A stretch of 64,000 nt of DNA. Origin: Timema cristinae (taxonomy: Eukaryota > Arthropoda > Insecta > Phasmatodea > Timematidae). Where the stretch lies: assembly GCA_039000515.1 (NCBI GenBank), contig JBCFYV010000012.1:113711126-113775125 (forward strand), given 5' to 3'. This document shows positions 5,074-60,300 of the stretch, piece by piece; position 1 is the first letter of the stretch, and each line of letters begins with the position of its first letter. Position numbers and translations under genes: made by a program. The notes below the pieces were generated by a model that did no database searches, was not told the DNA's origin, and worked only from the letters and a program-made list of their open reading frames with translations.

Positions 5074-5251
5074 ATATTCTGAAATTTTAAAAATGACACC
5101 TGGACACGGGAATCGAACCCAGGACCTTTGGCTTATTACGACAATGTTCTGACCACTGAGCTATCCAGGAATCGTCCCGTGCCCATGGTCATTCGAAGGC
5201 TCCCGGGATTGATTCCCGTGTCCAGGTGTCATTTTTCAATTTTCAGAATAT
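5074..5251. mobile_element. SINE family D: palindromic element of two opposed tRNA-like halves
   Basis: The left arm (atattctgaaa…aaatgacacctggacacggg) is the inverted complement of the right arm (…cccgtgtccaggtgtcattt…tttcagaatat), giving about 40-bp arms. The left half is a nearly complete minus-strand tRNA-like unit: cctggatagctcagtggtc, B box ggttcgattcc, acceptor-like cctgga/tccagg. The right half keeps only the T-arm side. Related copies lie at 10.1 and 18.1 kb. Confidence 0.75.
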
Positions 5252-7288: not shown

Positions 7289-7779
7289 CAAAATACAAAG
7301 GTTTCTAAATAATTATACTCGTATGGACTCCCTTAGCCTTAAAAAGGGATGCGGAGGTACAACAAAGCGATAAAAGCATCCCTTATTTGTTCACCTGCAA
7401 GGATTTGAATCCCTACCTTCTTAGTCTAAAATAATAAATCATATTAATTAATTGTGTATACACACGGGTTAGTTCAATATTTAAAAAAAATAATCATCTA
7501 TTGAAAAATTTGACTTAAAAGGGCCCTTACACGTTCAGTTATCCCGGTAGACTCGCCCGCACAAACTGGTTTGCACCTTGAAGACTGAGTATGTAGGGAA
7601 CCGTTTAGGGTTTACGGTATAGTTCTTGATTACTACTAGTTTCTTACCAAGTGCAGAATAAAATAATTTAACATACATAAATTCATACGTCTTGTATAAT
7701 GGTTGGGTGTTGCTGTATTGGTTTGGTTAAAGTTCGATTTTCATAAGAAAATTACAACTAAAAAAAATTATATCTACTT

Positions 7780-8015
7780 TCATGCATTCATACGTCAAGT
7801 CCTGTACTCATCAGCTGTCATTTTTTATATATAATAGTATTACCTTAAAAAATAACAATAATGATATATTAAAAAGTTATCAATGTTGATCGCAAAAAAA
7901 GAAAGGTGTTTTCATTTTCTAAAAGAGTCTTCATATGAAAATTGAACTCTAGTTTGAAAATAGTATGCTGTGGTATAAACGCAAGAACAAAAAATGAACT
8001 TCAATTCTTCAATTT
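7780..8015 (+). repeat. Dispersed repeat family G, copy 2
   Basis: Contains catacgtcaagtcctgta, cagctgtcattttttata, aatgttgatcgcaaaaaa and ttctaaaagagtcttcata in the same order as the copy at 3.4-3.97 kb, with moderate divergence. Confidence 0.55.
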
Positions 8016-8031
8016 TATTTTTAATCTTTTT

Positions 8032-8267
8032 TTAGTATCGCGTCTTAATACCCGTTCAGGTTTAACGCATAGGTACTAATTAAGCTTGTGTATTAAATAT
8101 GATTAAGGCTAATTATGAGAAAGTGTACCTGCAATTGCATAGAGGGAGAGTAGAAAACCATTTAGGAAAAAAACCTCAGTATACCCGACCTGGATTAGGA
8201 CCCTGATCTTTCTGTCATCGAAAGTACAGTCTGTTGAGAAAGTAGCATCTTATACCATGCAGCCACC
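8032..8267 (-). mobile_element. SINE family B, diverged
   Basis: The tail side tcgcgtcttaatacccgtt is at the left. The body has gtgtacctgcaattgcata and gagtagaaaaccattta. The B box is degraded (gattaggaccctgat). The head side accatgcagccacc is at the right. Confidence 0.8.
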
Positions 8268-8269
8268 AA

Positions 8270-9475
8270 AAAAATATATAATTTATCTTTAGCTTTACCT
8301 TCATGCAAATTAGTGTGCATTTTCTTTGAAATGTTGCATTTCTCATTTCCAGCCCATCAGTGTAATTAAATGCGGGTGGCCTGACGCGGCGAAAGAAAGG
8401 AGGAAAACACCTCCCCTCCCTCATGAATCCACCTCTCTCCTCACGGAATGATTGGGATTTCCCAAACTTAAGGGCCAGTCATCTCGAAAAATCATGGGAT
8501 CTAAAAATGCGTTAGGGGGCGTCCTTAAATTACGTAAGGGGTCTTTTTTAGGGTGGAGAGGTGTGTTCAGTATTTTCTTATGTTTTCTTACGAGGAGAAG
8601 GGCCAGTATCCATCTTACGGAATGTTTTTAATCATTGTTTATGGTGAGTCAAAATCAATTATTTTTGTCAGAAAATAAATTTAGACTTATTAATTATAAA
8701 AGCTCACTTATATGTTATCTACTTACTACAATCATTAAAATATTCTAAAATCTCATATCACTAGCTTTATTAACAATCTTTATGTCCAAACATAATTTAA
8801 CGATTCAAATAATTTAATTTACCTAATCGTAATAATTACGTTAGATAGAGGAAAGAGGAGGAGAATGAAGGAAAATCTTTACGATCACTTACCTGGGGTC
8901 GAAAGTATGAAAAAAGCCTAACGTAATTTAAGGACTCTCCCTAGGGGTAGGACAAATGCTCGGTAGGGGGTGAATATGACCAATCCCCACGACTCTATCC
9001 CCTCTCGAAGTGACCCCCCCCCCCCCACACACACAACACGTGGTCCTGTGGGAGAACAGGAAGAGGCCCTATTCTCATCCAATGATTTCCGATAATGCCG
9101 TGTATACACACTGCCCGGGAGGAAGTTTTTACCGGCGCTGGGGGGTGGGGGGAGGGATAGGGGAGAGACCGGGGTGCGATTTCTCCCCCCCCCCCCTTTT
9201 CGAGCACCCAGTGACAGGCCCTGACCCGGGAGACGAGAGATATCCGATCTGCCGGCTGGAAAGAGGTGGTCAGTCATCATTCTACCCTTCTAACTCCAGC
9301 CTCTTAAAAGGTATACCTAGGTAGCTGAGATATTGTCAGTCATAATAGGTCGCGCTTTTTGGTTGGATGTTGATAAAACCTTCAACAGTCCACGAGTTCG
9401 TTGTTTACTGGAATGAACACAAAACCATCTTCCATGACTCTATACATATTTTAACACCCATTAATGTTTCCCTGT
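8270..9475. other. Unassigned; GC-rich island with poly-C/poly-G runs
   Basis: At about 8995-9280 the sequence becomes GC-rich, with C13-type runs near 9014 and 9185 and G-rich runs between them. Frames are open on both strands, and at least three overlap. Overlapping open frames on both strands argue for composition rather than coding. I find no domain. Confidence 0.4.
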
Positions 9476-9477
9476 CG

Positions 9478-9672
9478 TAGCTTCATATGCTTTATAATCT
9501 AACTTAAGACTAGGATAAGCACAACACCCAGTCTCCGGTCGTTAATTTATCAATGTGAAACGGTAAAACCACATTTCCCCAATGATAATTTTTTTCGGCC
9601 ATGCCAGGAATTGAACCCGGGAACCTTAACTCAGTATACAGACACGCTACCAACTGAGCTAGAGAGTGTTTT
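9478..9672 (-). mobile_element. SINE family E copy
   Basis: The minus-strand head shows agctcagttggtagcgtgtc and the B box ccgggttcaattcctggcat. The body is gtggttttaccg… and ends acaacacccagtctccgg on the plus strand. It aligns with the copies at 21.9, 31.4, 38.3, 40.4, 46.7 and 55.2 kb. Confidence 0.8.
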
Positions 9673-9704
9673 TTTAATTACAATAATTACAATTACAATA
9701 GTAG

Positions 9705-9825
9705 ATTATGAACGAACCAGTGGTAACCAGGCTCCGGGATATCAACTAATGGAATATTTTCAACCACTGGTAACCAAGCCCAAGGACATAAAGTATAATA
9801 TTATGAACCAGTGGTAACCAGGTCC
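9705..9825 (+). repeat. Three spaced copies of an accagtggtaaccagg motif
   Basis: ccagtggtaaccagg, ccactggtaaccaag and ccagtggtaaccagg are spaced about 45 bp apart, each followed by a diverged spacer. This is a short decayed tandem array. Confidence 0.5.
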
Positions 9826-10099
9826 CAAAACAACAAACAATGGCGGGCTCCGAGCATCTGTGATTCAAACTAAGATTTTTAGTGGATAAGTTGAATGTAT
9901 GATTTAGACCCTAATTTTAATAGGAAGATCGTTATTTGATAAATAGAAAAGTTACTAGAAATGGGTTCATTAATTCATACGACAAATCATGTGATCTACA
10001 TATGTACCTTTGATAAAGGCCTATACAATGATATTTACATAATTTATAGTCTGAAATTACTGAACTGACTACACTTTTATATCGTCAGTGCGCGTGGAT

Positions 10100-20564: not shown

Positions 20565-21268
20565 GACCCTCCTATTAAATGACATTCTATTCCCAAAGCT
20601 CCATTCTACGCTCCTATAACATTGTGTTGTGACCCTCCTATTAAATGACAGATCATTCTATTCACAAAGATCCATTCTACGCTCCTATAACAGTGTGTTG
20701 TGACTATTAAATGACATCATTCTATTCACAAAGATCAATTCTACGCTCCTATAACAGTGTGTTGTGACTATTAAATGACATCATTCTATTCACAAAGATC
20801 CATTCTACGCTCCTATACCAGTGTGTTGTGACTATTAAATGACATCATTCTATTCACAAAGATCCATTCTACGCTCCTATACCAGTGTGTTGTGACTATT
20901 AAATGACATCATTCTATTCACAAAGATCCATTCTACGCTCCTATAACATTGTGTTGTGACTATTAAATGACAGATCATTCTATTCACAAAGATCCATTCT
21001 ACGCTCCTATAACAGTGTGTTGTGACTTTAAATGACATCATTCTATTCACAAAGATCAATTCTACGCTCCTATAACAGTGTGTTGTGACTATTAAATGAC
21101 ATCATTCTATTCACAAAGATCCATTCTACGCTCCTATACCAGTGTGTTGTGACTATTAAATGACATCATTCTATTCACAAAGATCCATTCTACGCTCCTA
21201 TACCAGTGTGTTGTGACTATTAAATGACATCATTCTATTCACAAAGATCCATTCTACGCTCCTATAGC
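20565..21268 (+). repeat. 64-bp tandem repeat, 11 units, with five-unit higher-order structure
   Basis: Each unit contains gtgttgtgactattaaatga, cattctattcacaaagatc and cattctacgctcctata. The string ctcctata recurs at 20611, 20682, 20746, 20810, 20874, 20938, 21004, 21067, 21131, 21195 and 21259. Variants (gacagatcatt, aagatcaatt, tatacca, ataacatt) repeat every five units, about 321 bp. Short frames inside are products of the repeat. Confidence 0.95.
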
Positions 21269-21664
21269 AGTTACCTTTCGTTTCTCGAACATTTAGCTCT
21301 TAATGATCAACAGAAATATGTTGATCTTTGGACTTTTCAAAGGGAAAATGTCAACTTTTAAACTATGTTTACAAGTCTATACATGTATAGGGTCATAGAG
21401 CATAGCTTTTTGTTCATTCCAGTAAACACACTCATATAGTATTACCAGTTTTATACATATTTAACCTCAGCGCAACACCTGATTGGCAATATATATCACC
21501 TACCTAGTCATCCCCCTTACCACTCGTACAGCCCGGCATTCAACCCCATTATACACTTCTTCATTCAGGGTTGGTCAAACTAACCATGTAGGCCTTTATA
21601 TCCCTGAAGATTAATGTCTCACAAACCTTTTTACATGAATAAAACACTTTTTTTCCACATTTTA

Positions 21665-33431: not shown

Positions 33432-34349
33432 GTATGTATGTGATGTATGTATGTAATGTATGTATGTATGTATGTATGTAATTTATGTATGTATGTAATG
33501 TATGTATGTATTTAATGTATGTATGTATTTAATGTATGTATGTATGTATGCATTTAATGTATGTAATTTATGTATGTATGTATGTATGTATGTATATATG
33601 TATGTAATGTATGTAATGTATGTAATGTATGTATATATGTATGTAATGTATGTATATATGTATGTATGTATTTAATGTATGTATGTAATTTATGTATGTA
33701 TGTATTAATGTATGTATGTATGTATGTATGTAATGTAATGTATGTAATGTATGTATATATGTATGTATGTATGTATGTATATATGTATGTAATGTATGTA
33801 ATGTATGTAATATTATGTATGTATGTATGTATGTATGTAATGTATGTATGTATGTATGTATGTATGTATGTATGTATGTATGTATGTATGTATGTATGTA
33901 TGTATGTATGTATGTATGTATGTATGTATGTATGTATGTATGTATGTATGTATGTATGTATGTATGTATGTATGTATGTATGTATGTATTAATGTATGTA
34001 TGTAATGTATTATGTATGTATTGTATTTAATGTATGTATGTAATTTTATGTATGTATGTATTTATGTATGTATGTATGTAATTTAGTATTATGTAATTGT
34101 ATGTATATGTATGTAATGTATTATGTAGTAATGTATGTATGTAGTATGTATGTATGTATGTAATGTATGTATGTAATGTATGTATGTATGTATATGTATG
34201 TATGTAATGTATGTATGATGTAATGTATGTAATGTAATGTATGTATGTTATGTATGTAATGTTATGTATGTATGTATTGTATGTATGTAGTATGTATTAT
34301 GTATGTATGTGTATTATTATGTATGAGTATGTTAATTTTATGTATTATG

Positions 34350-34380
<31 letters not shown>

Positions 34381-34395
34381 TGTATGTAATGTATG

Positions 34396-34429
<34 letters not shown>

Positions 34430-34667
34430 TGTATGTATATATGTATGTAATGTATGTAATGTATGTAATGTATGTATATATGTATGTAATGTATGTAATG
34501 TATGTATATATGTATGTATGTATTTAATGTATGTATGTAATTTATGTATGTATGTATTTAATGTATGTATGTAATTTATGTATGTATGTAATGTATGTAT
34601 GTATGTATGTATATATGTATGTATATATGTATATAATGTATGTAATGTATGTAATGTATGTATGTAC
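33432..34667 (+). repeat. (TATG)n array, ~1.24 kb
   Basis: TATG repeats with frequent phase breaks (taatgtatg, tttaatgtatg, tatatatg), and a long pure core at about 33,840-33,990. The array starts exactly at the LINE 3' end. The Met-Tyr-Val-Cys frames on the plus strand and their minus-strand counterparts are repeat products, not genes. Confidence 0.97.
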
Positions 34668-46434: not shown

Positions 46435-46640
46435 AAACGCACCGGGAGGCATTAGGACTAAACGTCAATCTCGTCTTGTCTGGTGTTCCGGTTACGTGGG
46501 AGGTCGGTGTTCGAATCTCAGCCCGATGTACTGAGGATGGTTTTTCTCTAAAACTCTTTCCAACCCTCCTTACACAAAATACTTACCTTCCTACTAGTGT
46601 AATTAAATGCGTGTACGCCGAACGGGTAGTAATACGCTAA
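46435..46640 (+). mobile_element. SINE family B, diverged head
   Basis: B box gtgttcgaatctcagccc, gatgtactgaggatggtttt, body tttccaaccctccttaca, tail gtacgccgaacgggtagtaa. Family E sequence follows immediately. Confidence 0.75.
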
Positions 46641-46641
46641 G

Positions 46642-46900
46642 TACCGACATCTTAGCTCAATCTGTATAGTATGTCTACCTACAGAGCTAAGAGTCCCTGG
46701 TTTGATTCTCTGCAAGGTAATAAAAAATGTATCGTTAGTGAAATGTGTTTTCCCTTTCACAGTGATGGATTAATGGCCGGGAGGGGGGGGGGAGGGGAAG
46801 TGTTGTGTTTGTTCTAAATTTAAATCAGCTTATAAGTCTTGTGCTGATATAATCGGTCGGTTCAGAAAGTGCATCTTAAATACCTCAAAAATAAAATAAC
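46642..46900 (+). mobile_element. SINE family E copy
   Basis: Head ccgacatcttagctcaatct, B box ccctggtttgattctctgca. Body tatcgttagtgaaatgtgtt, cacagtgatggattaatggc and a G-rich run, then gctgatataatcggtcggtt and cagaaagtgcatcttaaata. This gives the family's + strand order. Confidence 0.82.
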
Positions 46901-47047
46901 TAACACGCAAAGCAAAAATAAAAAAATACAAGTTCAATAAAAAAGAGTCGTTCGATTCGAGCGATTCGTTCGTTACACATCTCTTTCTAATATTGTGTAT
47001 TGCCCGCCAGGGCTTACGAGCCTCTACTTGCCACCGCCGTGTTGCGG

Positions 47048-47667
47048 AGATCACTTAAGTTGGCCCCCCCACCTCCTCAAAATTAAAATTTAAATACACC
47101 ACCGTTTTGCACCTATTTTGCACCGTTTTGCACCCAAGTATTACGTTTTGCACCCTAACCCAAGAGACGGTACGACTGTTTATGTTAAGGGGGGCCAAGT
47201 TAAGGGTAGCCCCCCCACTATCAAAATGTTGGATTTTTTTCATGCCATCTTAAAAGTCCTGTTTTGCACCGTTTTGCACCCAAGTATGGCGTTTTGCACC
47301 TGAATAGTTTTTCAAGAAAAAAATATTTAAAACGGGAAAAGGTGGGGGGGCCAAGTTAAGTGTAGCCCCCCCACTCACTGATTGGGGTTTTTTTCAATGC
47401 CAAAATAAATGTCCCGTTTTGCACCTTTTTGCACCCAAGTATGGCGTTTTGCACCTGAATAGTTTTTCAAGAAAAAAATATTTAAAATGGAAAAAGGTGG
47501 GGGCGCCAAGTTAAGTGTAGCCCCCCCAACTCACTGATCGGGGTTTTTTTCAATGCCAAAATAAATGTCCTGTTTTGCACCGTTTTGCACCCAAGAATGG
47601 CGTTTTGCACCCTAACAGATTCGCTAGAAAATAATATCTAGTATACAAAAGAATTAAGTCGTTGGAC
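47048..47667 (+). repeat. Left TIR with ~150-bp subrepeats
   Basis: About four subunits are marked by gttttgcacc at 47145, 47291, 47445 and 47602. They are separated by ccaagttaagtgtagccccc and fcaagaaaaaaatattta-like segments (…tttttcaagaaaaaaatatt…). The motif TTTTGCACC occurs about 13 times. Similarity to the right arm ends near the shared cgttggac at 47,660-47,667. Confidence 0.92.
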
Positions 47668-47733
47668 CTTCCCTCCACACCCTCAAATTAAGAATGTATA
47701 TATAACAACGTTTTATACATATTTAGCACCGTT

Positions 47734-48177
47734 TTGGACCTTAATAGTTTTTTAAGAAAAATAAATAAATTTAAAGTTAAAAAATGTTCGGTAGTCAAGT
47801 TAAGTGTAACTATCGGAAAACTATCATTTTTTAAGTACAATAAAAACAATTTTATCTACAAATCAAACAACATTGACCAAACATTTTTTTTAATATCTCA
47901 AATTTTCAAAAAGTATTATTTTTTTCGTAAACTACCCTCAAATTATTTATATTTGTTAAAAGTAAATATATATCTTCTTATTTATCATGATAAACAATTA
48001 ACAGACACCCATTTAAATAACATATTAAAATACTTTTTGAAAGATTTCAAATTTTCTAAAATTTATCATATATAAACTAAACTTAAATTAATATAGTTTA
48101 TTAAAAGCAATATACATTATTATTAAATCGTGTAAAATAGTCCTCAATTGGCAAAATTGTAAACTCTATTTTCAAAA
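47734..48177 (+). other. AT-rich interior of the long-TIR element
   Basis: A 113-codon frame (47,734-48,075) is rich in Lys, Asn, Ile and Phe, as expected from AT-rich sequence. I recognise no domain. I do not call it a gene. Confidence 0.4.
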
Positions 48178-48415
48178 AACCCGCTTCAGTGGCAGAATTG
48201 TCCAAGGCGTCAATATCCTGTTAGACTGGCCTGCTGGAGATGGGGAGATCGATGTTCGAATACCGATCGTGCCTACTGGGGGTATTTTTTCCTCATTAGT
48301 TTTCCACTCTCCAACGCAAGTGCAGGTAGATCACCTCTAAAATGATTTTTTTCTCCTCCCTACCCCATTAGAGTAATAATAATATATGCGTATAAGCTGA
48401 ACAGGCAATAAAACA
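48178..48415 (+). mobile_element. SINE family B nested in the long-TIR element
   Basis: Head cccgcttcagtggcagaatt, B box tgttcgaataccgatcgt, gcctactgggggta, body caacgcaagtgcaggtagat, tail aagctgaacaggcaataaaa. Its divergence suggests that the host element is not recent. Confidence 0.75.
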
Positions 48416-48529
48416 ATGGAATTAAATTTTTTTTCTTTTTCAAACTACAATTGTTCAAATATAAGTAATCAGCACTAGTGTTAAATGTATTGTTTAAGAT
48501 AAACCAATAATTATGAAATTATTATTTTT

Positions 48530-49030
48530 GTAAATAACTTGCCAGATACCCATTTTGAGCCAAATCGTTAACATTATTTTCAAAACATTTAAAATTCGAT
48601 AAAAAATCGGTATTTGGTAAACTACCCTTTAGTGAATTTTTCCCTAAAAAGCAAATGTACATTTTATTTTGTCATTTTGAAAAATACCCAGATTAACATA
48701 TTTAACCAAACCGTTTAAGCCATTTTCGAAAATCATTTGACTTTACAGAAATGATTCTTTATTAAACTACACTAGAATAAAATTTACTCAAGTGTACAGT
48801 GTTATTTGTTAGATCAAACACTAGCTCGATATAAAATTTAAACAAAATTGGTAGAGCCTTCTCTAAATATTTGTAGTTTTCAAAATTCACTCTTAAATAA
48901 ACTACCGTTAATATAAAGATTAGTGTCAAAATCAACACAAACTCCCAAAGTATAGCCATTCAATTTTGAACAAAATCATTCAAACAATTTAGTATCTATA
49001 TTCAGAAACAGAAAGAATTGTAAAATCCAC
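48530..49030. repeat. Degenerate tandem-like AT-rich repeats related to family I
   Basis: aaactacc recurs near 48,618, 48,755 (as aaactaca) and 48,898. Each is preceded by sequence like agccattttcgaaaatc, as in family I (attttgagaaaatcg…attaaactaccct). The repetition is weak and spaced irregularly at about 140 bp. Confidence 0.4.
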
Positions 49031-49034
49031 TTTT

Positions 49035-51325
49035 TTAATTCAGGAGAAAATAAACTTAAATCTTCATAATAATCTTTAGATTGAAAATGTTCATGATTAC
49101 AATAAGTCTATTTTCTCTCCATATGATAAAATTAGAATCCATAAAAAAAAATAAAGGTTAAACTATATTTAGAGCATATTTTCTAACTTGTGAATAGTTA
49201 TTTCTTAAAAGTCAAACATTTAAATATAAAATACAGTTGTTATTTAAATTCTACATAAGATTCAAATTATTTTTTCTAAAATATATTAAACATTCTCAAC
49301 TTTACAAATTTGGATTAAAATATGTTGGGGCAAATATTTTACATCTCTCAACTGTATAGCTAGGACCATTTCAAGTTAAATAAAACATTTTATTCAGCAC
49401 AAAAGTGTGTCTATTAACTGGACCTAAGAACTATATTTTTCACTATTTCAGGCTATTATAAAAAAAACTACTTAATGAGCCATGGTCCGGGATATAAAGT
49501 GCCTCGTTATATTATAATTAATAATTTCCATTAATGAGAAAAATTGTTTCTTAAATTCTAAATGTCAATGGAAATAAGTCTTAAACTTTATTGTGTGTAT
49601 ATATATTAATCAAACATTTATAATAATATAGTAATATAGGAAAATAGTAGATTTATAGTATTAAAGATGCCCATGCACACCCTTCCAGGTCGAACACATT
49701 CCATAAAAGATGCTCAACTAGGGTAGTTCTGTTCTTACATTGATCACGTGGGCAAGATAACCATCAGGACCGACAGTTGCTCAGCAAGCATTTTTAAGAT
49801 AGCGTTAAGAAACGTTTTCAGAATTTCTTAAATTTAAAGTAACTGAATATTAAGAAAAACAGGGTATACCATTAATATTTAACATAGTAAACCCGTCAGA
49901 AAAGGTCACCAGCTATACTGTCTCTCTTATTCATGCTCACCTCTCTTCCTTAATGTGTGGTGAAAGGGGAACAAGGAATTAATATCCAGTGAAATATAAT
50001 AACTCTAAAAATAAGGATAGCCTTTAATTATTGACCATCACAGATTCCAGATATTATACTCTTAATAGTATAAATGAAAATTACCAATAACAACCGTTCA
50101 CATAAAAGAATTAAGATAAAGAAAACACAAACATTAATAACATAAATGAAAATACCCAACAACAATTCATGACAATTATGACTTAAAGAACTGCGATAAA
50201 ACCAACAAATGCAATAATGCTCCTTACCCTTAACATTAAAATAATACACCAAGGAAATATATTGTAAGTAAGACGTTCCCCTTCCCACCCCAGTAGCATT
50301 ACAGGTGCTCTACAAGTAACTATATTATAACAGGAGAGATACTCAAAACATAAACCTTTCACCACCGTTTTTCCGAAACATTAATTTTCCAAGACACGCA
50401 GGCTGAAATATGAGGTTAAAGAACATAGAACAATTAAACTCACCGAGCTCATCTTACCACCAAATAAAATGATTACTCGTATATGAAACCCTTACTCTCT
50501 GTCACTAGGTTAGTGATCACGCAGAGTACGAAAACCTGCATTGCATCCACAAAAATTGAAGATTGGAAGAGGAACAGATGACCAACTCAAAAACTCCAAA
50601 AAACCTTTTCTTACGCGTCCTTTCTCTAAAAAAGCTCCACACATTGTATCAAACCACCAATAGATGGCAAAACGTTAATGTTTTTACTAAACCTAGTTCT
50701 CACATAAAAAGAAACAATAACTATTAAACATTTAAAAACCAAAGAGAAATTAATTCAGATAACTAATAATGAAAACAAAGGAAAATTAATGCGTAAATTA
50801 ATATTGTTAAGAAAATAGTTCTGAAGTTATCAACGTCAGTGTCACCATCTGTCGATCTTGCAAAACACTCAACCCAGACCCCTCCCTTCCTTTGGGCATG
50901 TCATTGATGTTAGATACCATTTGCTATGCTGGACAAAAAATGTAAGTAAAGGCAGGCTACGAACAATAAGTGTAAAGACTACAACATAAGCTGCATCATA
51001 AATTGAATTTATCAGTCTCATTCTTGAATGTCTACAAAAGTGGGCTATATATATGACTGTCATCCAAACCACTTTTGAAAACATACGGCAATGAACAACA
51101 TGGTTTATCCTAGGATATCTTGGAAACAAATAAAGCAAATACTCATTGACAGCATTGGTGATATTGAATTCCACTGACCAGCTCGAATAAACTAACCGTA
51201 AATATCTTATTTAAAAAAAAAGAAATGTTTCTATCAATGCAATATTTAATTGTGATAATGATACGAATGTGAACATGCGGTGTATTTATGATGCTCTTTT
51301 ACTCTGAAAGTGCATAAATTACGCT
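49035..51325. other. Interior of the long-TIR element, unassigned
   Basis: AT-rich to about 49,650, then more balanced composition. It could hold the degraded 5' part of the coding region that becomes recognisable at 51,330. The 101-codon minus-strand frame at 50,869-51,174 shows no recognised motif. Confidence 0.4.
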
Positions 51326-51329
51326 CGCT

Positions 51330-52676
51330 ATGACATACAATGAGAGACAAGTGTGCCGTTTGTGTACTGACAATATGCAGCCAATCCCAATTTACCAAAC
51401 CACTAGAAACAAAAGTATTGTCAATCTGCTTTATGGATTGGGCTTCTCGATTAAGTATATCTGTCTTAACAGGTATGAGACTCAAATCGCAGAGTGTGAT
51501 ATGAATGATGTCTGGAGGAATAATGGAGTGTATTTACTTGCAAATATGGTCAAGAGCTGATATATATTTTTCGCAATAGACATTGTAGATTTTATGGAAG
51601 ATACCTCTAATGGAAAAAAAAAATTACACATGCCACAGCGCTGGCCATTTATCAGCGAAAAGAAGCAGATGACAGTATAGAAGTTCTTCAACTGTGTAAA
51701 ACGTCTGGAAACTGTGCAATATACATTCCTGACTGTTCAACTGTTATTAGAGATTGTTTTATGCCATCTAAACAGATTCTAAAATTCAAAACTTATCCTG
51801 ACTGCAGCCAATTTCTGTAGGCCACCCTGGTATTACTGACATGAAGGGATGGTTTATAGGGAAGATATCCACAAAATTAGAGGTGCTTCCCTGCAAGATG
51901 GCACACAATGTGTAAGTTAAGACATGAGTGGAAATTCAAATATTTCAACATGGGCCACCTTCATTTCTCATATAACCACATCTTTGCCAATAACTGCGGT
52001 TCATGTTACCTCACTGATACTTGCGCCACCAACAGAATAGTCAGCATTGTTAACAGTTATATTTCAATTACCAAGTATTAACCATCTAGTAATGGGTCCA
52101 CAAAAAGTCAGTGCTTAATTTTGCCAGGATTTCATGCCTTCACTGGCTGTGTTACCACATAATGTTTTTCAGGCAAATCAAATTTGGGAGTGTGTTGAAG
52201 AGGGAATAGAAAAATTTGTCTGTAAACTTTATATGCCATGATCTACAGTAACGACAGTGGGAGAAGTAAGATGGTATATTTAATAAAAAGTGAAATCTGA
52301 AAATATGCCACCCAAGTTGTCTGCTCTAAAATTCTCTATATTGAGGGATATTTTATTAGTGCATAATTTGGAACAATGATTTTACTGCTCATCCAAATAT
52401 ACCATCTCCTGAACCGGGCTATGGTTTGGAAGCTAGTAATGGTTATTATGTTCTGAAAATTACAGACATGCCACCAGCACCTTTAGAAATATTATAGCTC
52501 ATAAAATGCTATTGAAAAACAAACTGCCTCTCCAAATTGTGCTCCTGTTGCCGTAGTTATCTACCGTGCACCGATATGTTTTTGTGTCCAAATGATGATT
52601 CTCAGAAGTGTGAAACCAGTAGCCCTCTTTATTCCCATGATGATGAATACTGTGATTGTAATAACTTAGAATTATA
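51330..52676 (+). pseudogene. Decayed gene of an expanded metazoan family (FHAFTGC motif, C-terminal Cys-rich tail)
   Basis: Conserved blocks appear in order on the plus strand across frames: ICRLC-type start with NMQPIPIYQ and SIVNLLYGLGFSIKY (51,330-51,470), FFAIDIVDFMEDTSNGKK (51,567-51,620), then after a frameshift at a run of A's HATALAIYQRKEADDS and CAIYIPDC, ILPGFHAFTGCVTT (about 52,110-52,160), LSALKFSILR (52,320), TDMPPAPLEIL (52,465), and a Cys cluster KTNCLSKLCSCCRS…PCTD (52,510-52,585). I recall this layout from large, poorly characterised proteins expanded in cnidarian, mollusc and arthropod genomes, with a DTD/HAxTGCDTT-type core and a CXC-like tail. There are several stops (51,558; about 51,820; a TGA within the Cys cluster) and shifts. 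The gene sits inside the long-TIR element, so it may be element-encoded or captured cargo. Confidence 0.7.
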
Positions 52677-53539
52677 ACACAGCATTTACAAACAATATTC
52701 TAACGCACAGTAATAATTTTCTCTTATTTGTATTGTGCATTTTTTCTATTTACACTGAATAACAAATGCATGAGAAAATTAATTATATTATGTGATTACT
52801 GTAAGAAATATGGTTCAGTAAATGTTTCAACTTATCTTTTTTTAATTTCCAAAACAAAGTTTTTGCAAGAACACTTAATTTCTCGCAAGCCTTGAATGTA
52901 AAAGATTTTTCCTAATGCTTTATTTAGAGTTAAACACAGTTATTTTTAAAGTATATCATTTTTAGAAGTCAATAATGCCATTGAACAAGTTAAGTTATTA
53001 CATTAATGTTCACATCTGCTGAGGGAATATTAATCTAATGTTTTCATAGCTCTGGGACCCTTAATGTTAGTGATAGGGAGGCCATAAATATTTCAAACTA
53101 AAGATTATTATAATTGTTACCATTAGTAAATCTAAAAACATTAATTTTCTTACTACCATCAAAACTAATAGAAAAAAGTTAAAATGTTTAGCGTTTATTA
53201 ATATTTCTGGAGATAATAGGTTAATTACATGCTGTCAGCCAAATTGTAGAAAAATGTATTAGCTTTAATTTTAGTTAGTGTGGACTTTTATATTATAGAA
53301 TCTATGGAAATTACAGTCAATAATGTTGTAACAAGTAACATGATATTTACCATTCCCCTGCGCCACACATCCCTGCCCTACAACCCTCCCCCCCCCCCCT
53401 CTCCCTCACCCACTCATGATTTTTGGAAGTGGCAACATGTGTTTTGAACTATATGGGGTGCCAATTAATAACTTAAAAAAACAAGGCAATACTGTATCAC
53501 AAATTCACACGGCAAGCCAGTTGCTCCTCCGCCAGGAGA
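52677..53539. other. 3' interior of the long-TIR element
   Basis: AT-rich, with a C10-type run near 53,390. No gene recognised. Confidence 0.45.
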
Positions 53540-54132
53540 GTCCAACGATTTGATTTCTTTGTATCTTAAATATTTTTTGTCTCGCTAATCTTTTAGGGTG
53601 CAAAATGGTGCAAAACAGGAATTTTATTTTGGCATTAAAAAAACACAATTATTGAGTTGGGGGGGGGCTACACTTAACTTGGCCCCCCCACCTTTTTCCG
53701 TTTTAAATATTTTTTTCTTGAAAAACTATTCAGGTGCAAAACGCCATACTTGGGTGCAAAACAGGACATTTATTTTGGCATTGAAAAAAAACCTCAACCA
53801 TTGAGTTGGGGGGCTACACTTAACTTGGCGCCCCCACCTTTTTCCATTTTAAATATTTTTTTCTTGAAAAACTATTCAGGTGCAAAACGCCATACTTGGG
53901 TGCAAAACGGTGCAAAACAGGACTTTTAAGATGGCATGAAAAAAATCCAACATTTTGATAGTGGGGGGGCTACCCTTAACTTGGCCCCCCCTTAACATAA
54001 ACAGTCGTACCGTCTCTTGGGTTAGGGTGCAAAACGTAATACTTGGGTGCAAAACGGTGCAAAATAGGTGCAAAACGGTGGTGTATTTAAATTTTAATTT
54101 TGAGGAGGTGGGGGGGCCAACTTAAGTGATCT
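53540..54132 (-). repeat. Right TIR with ~150-bp subrepeats
   Basis: Inverted copy of 47,048-47,667. The outermost ~290 bp are almost identical, and inner subunits differ by small indels (for example a missing gttttgcacc pair). GGTGCAAAA motifs occur about 11 times. Confidence 0.92.
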
Positions 54133-54141
54133 GTGTTGCGG

Positions 54142-54515
54142 TATGAGGAAGCCAGGAGAGTGTGTGTGTGTGTGGCTCATTGGGGTGGGGTGGGGGAGGA
54201 GGGGGGGGAGAGGAGGCTGCTCGTCAGTTCGAAGTGAAGATTCCGTCCCGTCATAACGCACTTCCCCCGGCTCGGCGGTTATCGGAGTTTGCGGCTTGTA
54301 ATAAAGCCCCTGGTTACTCATCTTGCGGAGGTGCTACGCCCCCTGTTCTCCACTTCTGCGCCCTCTATGAGTCATTACGGAGAATATACCGCATACCGAG
54401 AGATGGAAACCTACATTTCAAGGGGTCGAGAACATCACTCTACAGAGCTCTAAGTTCGCTGTGAGGCAAGTTACTACGTTTTGCGCGGGAAAATATGAAT
54501 TATTATATTTTGTAT
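54142..54515. other. Unassigned, GC-richer flank
   Basis: A short (GT)n and G-rich run at about 54,160-54,215, then balanced sequence with a 100-codon plus-strand frame (54,162-54,464) that I cannot assign. Confidence 0.35.
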
Positions 54516-54519
54516 TTAT

Positions 54520-54755
54520 TTGGGCCTCGTGTCTTACTACCCGTCCAGATTATAAACATACAATAGCATTTCTTTAAAAGGAATGTGTAAGGTAGACATT
54601 TTTTTAATAAATTTGAGCGGAGGAAGAATGGAAAACTATTTCGAGAAAAAAACCTCATTACTACTAACCGGGATTCTAACCCAGGTCTCCCCGTCATTGG
54701 TGGTACAGTATACTGCGAGAGAGACGCCTTAAACGATTGAGCTACTGAAGAGAGT
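54520..54755 (-). mobile_element. SINE family B copy
   Basis: Tail ctcgtgtcttactacccgtc, body gagcggaggaagaatggaaa, B box accgggattctaacccagg, head side tgcgagagagacgccttaaa and gagctactgaag. Confidence 0.82.
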
Positions 54756-58209: not shown

Positions 58210-60300
58210 GTCAAACTCTACCCGCCACCGTGTGTTAACCAGACTCTACCCACCATCGTGTGTTAACCACACTCTACCTACCATCGTGTGTTAACCACAC
58301 CTCACTTTCCATCGTGGTTCAACCACACTCTACCTACCATCGTGTGTTAACCAGACTCTACCACCATCGTGTGTTAACCACACTCGACTTACCACGTGTG
58401 TTAACCAGACTCTACCACCATCGTGTGTTAACCACACTCTACCTACCATCGTGTGTTAACCACACTCACTTACCATCGTTGTTAACCACACTGACCACCA
58501 CCGTGTGTTAACCAGACTCACCCACCATCGTGTGTTAACCACACTCTACCTACCATCGTGTGTTAACCACACTCGACTTACCACCGTGTGTTAACCAGAC
58601 TCTACCCACCATCGTGTGTTAAACACACTCGACCACCATCGTGTGTTAACCACACTCTACCCACCATCGTATGTTAACCAGACTATACCCACCATTGTGT
58701 GTTAGCCACACTCACTTACCACCGTGTGTTAACCACACTCGACTCACCATCGTGTGTTAACCACACTCTACCTAACATCGTGTGTTAACCACACTCTACC
58801 CACCATCGTTGTTAACCAGACTCTACCCACCATCGTGTGTTAACCACACTCTACCCTACCATCGTGTGTTAACCACACTCTACCTACCATCGTGTGTTAA
58901 CCACACTCGACTTACCATCGTGTGTTAACCACACTCTACCTACCAGCATATGTCAGTACACACTCTACCCACCATCGTGTGTTAACCACACTCTACCCAC
59001 CATCGTGTGTTAACCAGACTCTACCCACCATCGTGTGTTAACCACACTCGACCCACCACGTGTGTTAACCACACTCACCACCACCATGTGTTAACCAGAC
59101 TCTACCCACCATCGTGTGTTAACCACACTCGTACCACCATCGTGTGTTAACCACACTTGACCCACCACCGTGTGTTAACCAGACTTCTACCCACCATCGT
59201 GTGTTAACCACCTCTACCTACCATCGTGTGTTAACCACACTCGACTTACCACCTGTGTTAACCAGACTCTACCCACCATCGTGTGTTACCACACTCGACT
59301 TACCATCGTGTGTTAACCACAACTACTACCCACCATCGTATGTTAACCAGACTATACCCACCATTGTGTGTTAGCCACACTCTACTTACCACACGTGTGT
59401 TAACCACACTCGACTCACCATCGTGTGTTAACCACACTCTACCTAACATCGTGTGTTAACCACACTCTACCCACCATCGTATGTTAACCAGACTCTACCC
59501 ACCATCGTGTGTTAACCACACTCTACCCACCATCGTATGTTAACCAGACTATACCCACCATTGTGTGTTAGCCACACTCTACTACCACCGTTGTTAACCA
59601 CACTAACTCACCATCGTGTGTTAACCACACTCTACCTAACATCGTGTGTTAACCACACTCTACCCACCATCGTATGTTAACCAGACTCTACCCACCATCG
59701 TGTGTTAACCACACTCTACCCACCATCGTGTGTTAACCACACTCTACCTACCATCGTGTGTTAACCACACTCGACCTACCATCGTGTGTTAACCACACTC
59801 TACCTACCAGCATATGTCGTCACACTCTACCCACCATCGTGTGTTAACCACACTCTACCACCATCGTGTGTTAACCAACTCTACCCACCATCGTGTGTTA
59901 ACCACACTCGACCACCACCGTGTGTTAACCACACTCGACTCACCACCATGTGTTAACCAGACTCTACCCACCATCGTGTGTTAACCACACTCGACCACCA
60001 TCGTTGTTAACCACACTCTACCTACCATCGTGTGTTAACCACACTCTACCCACCATCGTATGTTAACCAGACTATACCCACCATTGTGTGTTAGCCCCAC
60101 TCTACTACCACCGGTGTTAAACACATCGACTCACTCGTGTGTTAACCACACTCTACTAACATGTGTGTTAACACACCTACCCACCATCGTATGTTAACCA
60201 TACTATACCCACCATTGTGTGTTAACCAACTCTACCACCATCGTATGTTAACCACACTCTACCTACCAGCGTATGGCAGTCACACTATACTACTCGGCGT
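58210..60300 (+). repeat. ~28-bp minisatellite, ~2.1 kb
   Basis: The unit is close to ctctacctaccatcgtgtgt followed by taaccaca. Variant units (accattgtgtgttagcc at 58,692, 59,358, 59,557 and 60,080; accagcatatgtc at 58,944 and 59,807) recur in ordered blocks, so larger segments have been duplicated. The frames at 58,260, 59,144 and 60,161 are products of the repeat. Confidence 0.96.

Follow-up and report, generated by a model that had tools for sequence, protein, structure and literature searches.

What kind of mobile element lies in a 64,000-nucleotide stretch of the genome of the stick insect Timema cristinae (assembly GCA_039000515.1, contig JBCFYV010000012.1, positions 113,711,126 to 113,775,125; hereafter the window), and which transposase moved it? 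A preliminary description made from the sequence alone reported a 7,085-bp DNA transposon of unclear superfamily, bounded by inverted arms of about 600 bp and a perfect 9-bp target site duplication (TSD); its coordinates, arms and duplication are all accurate (Table 1). The element belongs to a real, fairly recently mobile family of DNA transposons that is no longer self-sufficient. It has well-defined ends, a 9-bp TSD, the relic of a gene and an internal deletion shared with other copies, and on balance it is probably a non-autonomous, foldback-like transposon descended from an element with an Academ-type transposase and mobilised in trans.

Table 1. Positions in the window of the transposon, its ends, its target duplication and its gene relic (TIR, terminal inverted repeat)
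Feature	Position	Strand	Remarks
Transposon	47048..54132		7,085 bp
Left TSD copy	47039..47047	.	9 bp, GTGTTGCGG
Right TSD copy	54133..54141	.	9 bp, GTGTTGCGG
Left TIR	47048..47667	+	starts with AGATCACTTAAGTTGGCC
Right TIR	53540..54132	-	
Left-arm tandem units	47189..47611	+	~155 bp; inverted near-copies of terminus and TTTTGCACC motifs
Right-arm tandem units	53607..53908	-	~146 bp
Interior block, no recognised gene	47668..50884	.	
Relic, N-terminal half	50885..52106	+	to first candidate catalytic Asp (FFAID.VDFMEDT)
Junction of shared internal deletion	52106	+	~715 codons, P0145 residues 372-1085
Relic, C-terminal end	52106..52656	+	last nuclease part (LPGFHAFTG) and cysteine-rich tail

The two ends of the element, 620 bp on the left and 593 bp on the right, match each other inversely at 89.4% (blastn), with an outermost gap-free pair of 169 nt that is 94% complementary and outer 300-bp segments that are 99.3% identical over 299 aligned bases. 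Tandem units are present at 2.7 copies in the left arm and 2.1 in the right, so that the element has the long TIRs with internal tandem repeats that define the foldback type. The near-copies of the terminus and the TTTTGCACC motifs in the left arm are candidate extra binding sites for a transposase. A search of positions 46500-54700 against Rfam returned nothing up to E 0.1. A tRNA-like appearance near 48180-48290, judged by eye only, was set aside, ARAGORN having made no call there. The scans made gave no sign of a provirus, although none was aimed at proviruses.

The exact 18-bp terminus AGATCACTTAAGTTGGCC occurs 134 times in the 1.29-Gb genome (63 forward, 71 reverse; reversed control, 0 + 0). 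Positions at 100 of these 134 places were compared with other loci, and among the places listed 26 pairs of termini face each other at a distance of at most 20 kb; 21 pairs span 5.8-7.5 kb, 3 are shorter and 2 longer. With the first 301 bp as query, 127 matching stretches were obtained from the genome, 40 of 579 candidates having been scored. Twenty-eight copies were examined, including that of the window; 24 have both ends, and L021, L026, L027 and L028 have a single end within the sequence retrieved. Two insertions recur on different contigs; their copies, with the same flanks on both sides (L024/L025 and L031/L032), were counted once per pair. The 24 two-ended copies thereby represent 22 distinct insertions, to which the older copy L037 adds a twenty-third.

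Eighteen of these 23 insertions have a perfect 9-bp TSD, four have one mismatch and one (L030) has three. A perfect duplication of exactly 6, 7, 8, 10, 11, 12 or 13 bp was found in none of the 23, and a control with mismatched flanks agreed in 0 of 506 cases at 9 bp and in 1 of 506 at 8 bp. The many full-length copies and their duplications bear out the identification as a DNA transposon: neither an absence of other copies nor flanks devoid of 9-bp TSDs, the outcomes named in the preliminary description as counting against it, was observed. No strong motif is shared by the 18 targets with perfect duplications.

Most of the window copy can be aligned with the remaining long copies, at ~91-99% identity. 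In 15 of the 21 copies longer than 6 kb, a set that includes both doubled insertions, the two arms share 98.7% identity or more across their outer 300 bp; the lowest value is 82%. Because arm identity is high in most long copies, the insertions appear to be mostly fairly recent, or else the arms have been homogenised by conversion. L027 recalls a rearranged foldback element, with several inverted blocks of arm sequence at 7501-9991.

The preliminary description had recognised no transposase inside the element. In fact, a 1.8-kb gene relic is present, from a family of proteins that probably combine a DDE domain, a nuclease and eight cysteines (DDE-nuclease-Cys8). Pfam alone misses the relic: neither single open reading frames (ORFs) nor the six frames of 47701-50903 had a match above cut-off, and two pieces had none in NCBIfam. 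Nor do the copies share an intact ORF of the kind that the preliminary description proposed to look for, the longest stop-to-stop frame in 24 copies being 135 aa. Frames at 51.3-52.7 kb presumably resemble a known type of metazoan protein. A read-through query matched only two proteins, P0001 (47% identity, 36% of the query) and P0002, a predicted Timema douglasi protein that includes fragments of the relic (83% identity, 9% of the query) and is probably a chimeric gene prediction. These matches by themselves point to a stick insect of the genus Timema as the probable host.

Alignment of the window with the relative P0145 locates the internal deletion: the match to residues 136-274 and 315-371 ends at 52106, and that to residues 1086-1219 starts there. 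The match extends back to 50885-50894 with P0009 and P0185 and forward to 52656 with P0196. The deletion removes the second candidate Asp, a helical insertion, the candidate Glu and most of the nuclease. A single alignment crosses the deletion point in 21 of 24 copies (19 of 22 distinct insertions), the other three being short derivatives. Forty relic loci were scored with the L037 gene: 35 match in one piece across this point, four have gaps of no more than 0.2 kb between their pieces, and one has the N-terminal part only. Most of the younger relic copies have lost a further ~168 bp. About 290 bp of extra sequence breaks the relic at L034:4862-5152 and at the corresponding position in L033; two stretches of L037, one of them close to its end, match ~160 bp of this extra sequence.

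Searches for relatives of the relic returned 91 proteins with P0001 and 163 with P0076, 120 of the latter being listed. Most of the organisms named among the proteins listed are animals. A bacterial metagenome-assembled genome (Sedimenticola) is given as the source of P0164 and P0185, and P0071 has a bacterial gene name, labels that probably reflect contamination or misnaming. Viral and prokaryotic contigs (query A2) and phage records yielded no relative. The best VIA rows for the relative P0019 are DDE transposases and RAG1, with none from Foldseek at E <= 0.001, and P0001 had no match among PDB sequences at E 1 or below. In the family alignment the candidate catalytic triad is conserved, as are other acidic columns; the relic itself retains only the first Asp. 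The same protein family contains a nuclease of XPG/FEN1 fold and eight C-terminal cysteine columns; in an alignment of 50, each of these columns is reached by 25-29 sequences, 23-27 of which have Cys there. Pfam covers the family in part, as DUF6589 and mostly below cut-off, and DUF6589 as a whole word is absent from the open-access literature searched. The genome also encodes two distant relatives without stops (G000:C12:16857493-16860438 and C7605:119389244-119392183), with open frames of 1,124 and 1,269 aa that match P0145 residues 132-1198 and 132-1197 at 25-26% identity; they are either active elements or domesticated genes.

The gene may be the element's own. The older copy L037 contains the relic, has the same outer terminal motif and is flanked by a perfect 9-bp TSD, GGTGCGAGG. 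On contigs with listed termini, an exact terminus lies within 9 kb of 16 of 25 relic loci, several of which are copies already counted; L037 scores as a miss here because its terminus differs at a few bases. In a set of 57 of 123 protein matches, an incomplete choice that includes distant families, a terminus is near 33 and not near 24.

A DDE domain, an XPG-type nuclease and Cys8 in one protein are the hallmark of Academ transposons. The family of the relic resembles AcademX, the nuclease-type Academ, in its probable DDE core, its XPG/FEN1-fold nuclease and its eight C-terminal cysteines. The relic gene would be the former mobilising transposase, with a DDE core and a place in Academ. The element would be a non-autonomous cut-and-paste transposon with long, internally repetitive, foldback-like ends, and its ancestor a larger element, perhaps ~9 kb, encoding an Academ-type transposase in which a DDE/D catalytic domain, an XPG/FEN1-like nuclease and a Cys8 tail formed one protein. 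Loss of ~715 codons of this gene in an ancestor would have left a shortened element that still moved in trans, relying on a transposase supplied by an autonomous relative so far unseen. That enzyme would recognise the AGATCACTTAAGTTGGCC termini, probably together with their repeated inner near-copies, and cut the target with a 9-bp stagger.

Several observations weigh against this account. The relevant passages of Kojima and Bao (PMC10045372) give TSDs of 9 or 10 bp for AcademH and 3 or 4 bp for AcademX and tie the two to helicase and nuclease, respectively; the TSD here is 9 bp, unlike that of AcademX. No autonomous copy is among those found, ~2.7 kb of the left block of the young copies (48197-50897) have little counterpart in L037, and four short inverted pairs inside the element bracket the relic. 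Changes between L037 and L036 number 60, 45 and 34 by codon position, and other pairs look alike; this spread shows no sign of selection after the subfamilies diverged, and selection on the relic gene in that period was set aside.

Because the 3-4 bp TSD of AcademX is not found, the element is not filed there; it is called instead a non-autonomous family of foldback-like form that carries the relic of an Academ-type gene. Its long arms with tandem units are a further difference from AcademX, with Academ compared by description. The 9-bp TSD falls within the 9-10 bp given for AcademH in the same passages of PMC10045372. Unlike AcademH, however, the relic family has a nuclease, the content of the deleted middle being judged from relatives alone; Pfam detects no helicase in the six frames of 47701-50903 of this internally deleted element. 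The superfamily, unclear in the preliminary description, need not be called unknown: provisionally, Academ-like is the better description, albeit with a TSD of unexpected length, and a Mutator-like identity is the other candidate. It is quite possible, though somewhat less likely than not, that an XPG-bearing, nuclease-type Academ lineage in insects makes 9-bp rather than 3-4 bp TSDs and has long foldback-like ends.

The chief rival is that a foldback-type, non-autonomous Mutator-like element (MULE) picked up an Academ-type gene, by capture or by invasion, before spreading, and was moved in trans by a MULE transposase. This is unlikely. MULEs are reported to have TSDs of 8-11 bp (PMC6446971), and by published accounts (PMC6446971, PMC3169594) they and the Mutator-related foldbacks Tm1 and Rehavkus resemble the element in TSDs of about 9 bp and in long TIRs, partly with internal repeats. 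The long arms with tandem units also recall Tetris, a non-autonomous foldback of Drosophila virilis with TSDs of 8-9 bp; unlike the element, which has a gene relic, Tetris is described in that account as without apparent protein-coding capacity (PMC4079207). Tm1, Rehavkus and Tetris were all compared by description. MULE domains are abundant in the genome: of 413 candidates 150 were scored, and the hits listed are all above cut-off, many of them without stops. Among four short inverted pairs around the relic, the best is 21 nt at 95% (49066-49086 / 53091-53111).

The relic gene, however, is of another family, and the six frames of 47701-50903 contain no MULE domain, an absence that is weak evidence because the copies are non-autonomous. 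Among the matches listed, the nearest of 62 MULE hits on eight contigs is 36 kb from an exact terminus, in contrast to the 16 of 25 relic loci with a terminus within 9 kb. According to a 2026 survey, most arthropod MULEs conserve G/C within the outermost three bases of their ends, whereas the ends here begin AGA; the main text of the survey mentions neither Timema nor Phasmatodea (PMC13359780). A nested Academ element with long TIRs of its own was set aside, since internal inverted pairs measure only 16-26 nt, four of them lying around the relic, and no longer pair brackets it. Because such short pairs do bracket the relic, a nested insertion with very short ends may nevertheless have occurred.

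Descent from an Academ-type element has also to be set against the idea that the DDE-nuclease-Cys8 family is a separate, undescribed superfamily that makes 9-bp duplications. A TSD unlike that of nuclease-type Academ in the passages cited (PMC10045372), the partial coverage by Pfam and the silence of the searched literature on DUF6589 speak for such a superfamily. The idea is nonetheless improbable, as the combination of DDE domain, XPG-type nuclease and Cys8, compared by description, is the mark of Academ. That the locus is a segmental or assembly artefact is hardly credible: two insertions do appear twice on different contigs, but in 18 of the 23 distinct insertions the target itself is perfectly duplicated over 9 bp, against 0 of 506 in the control.

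The length of a TSD reflects the placement of the transposase's two cuts. A nuclease-type Academ with a 9-bp TSD would, if real, break the reported link between accessory enzyme and cut stagger, and a nuclease-type relative with a fixed 9-bp TSD makes the helicase/nuclease idea directly testable. The results also suggest that DUF6589 forms part of what is probably a transposase core, and they provide, in an insect genome, a clean set of insertions, most of them recent, that can be dated. No earlier report of this transposon family was found in the open-access literature, a search that did not cover Repbase.

Elsewhere in the window, ARAGORN identified a tRNA-Ile gene (anticodon aat) on the minus strand at 5098-5169. 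A 64-bp unit is repeated in tandem 10.9 times at 20572-21271, with a longer period of 321 bp, and ~300 copies of the unit GTAT occupy 33432-34666. Downstream of the element, 58215-60272 consists of ~75 tandem copies of a 28-bp unit with 84% matches and a strong GC skew.
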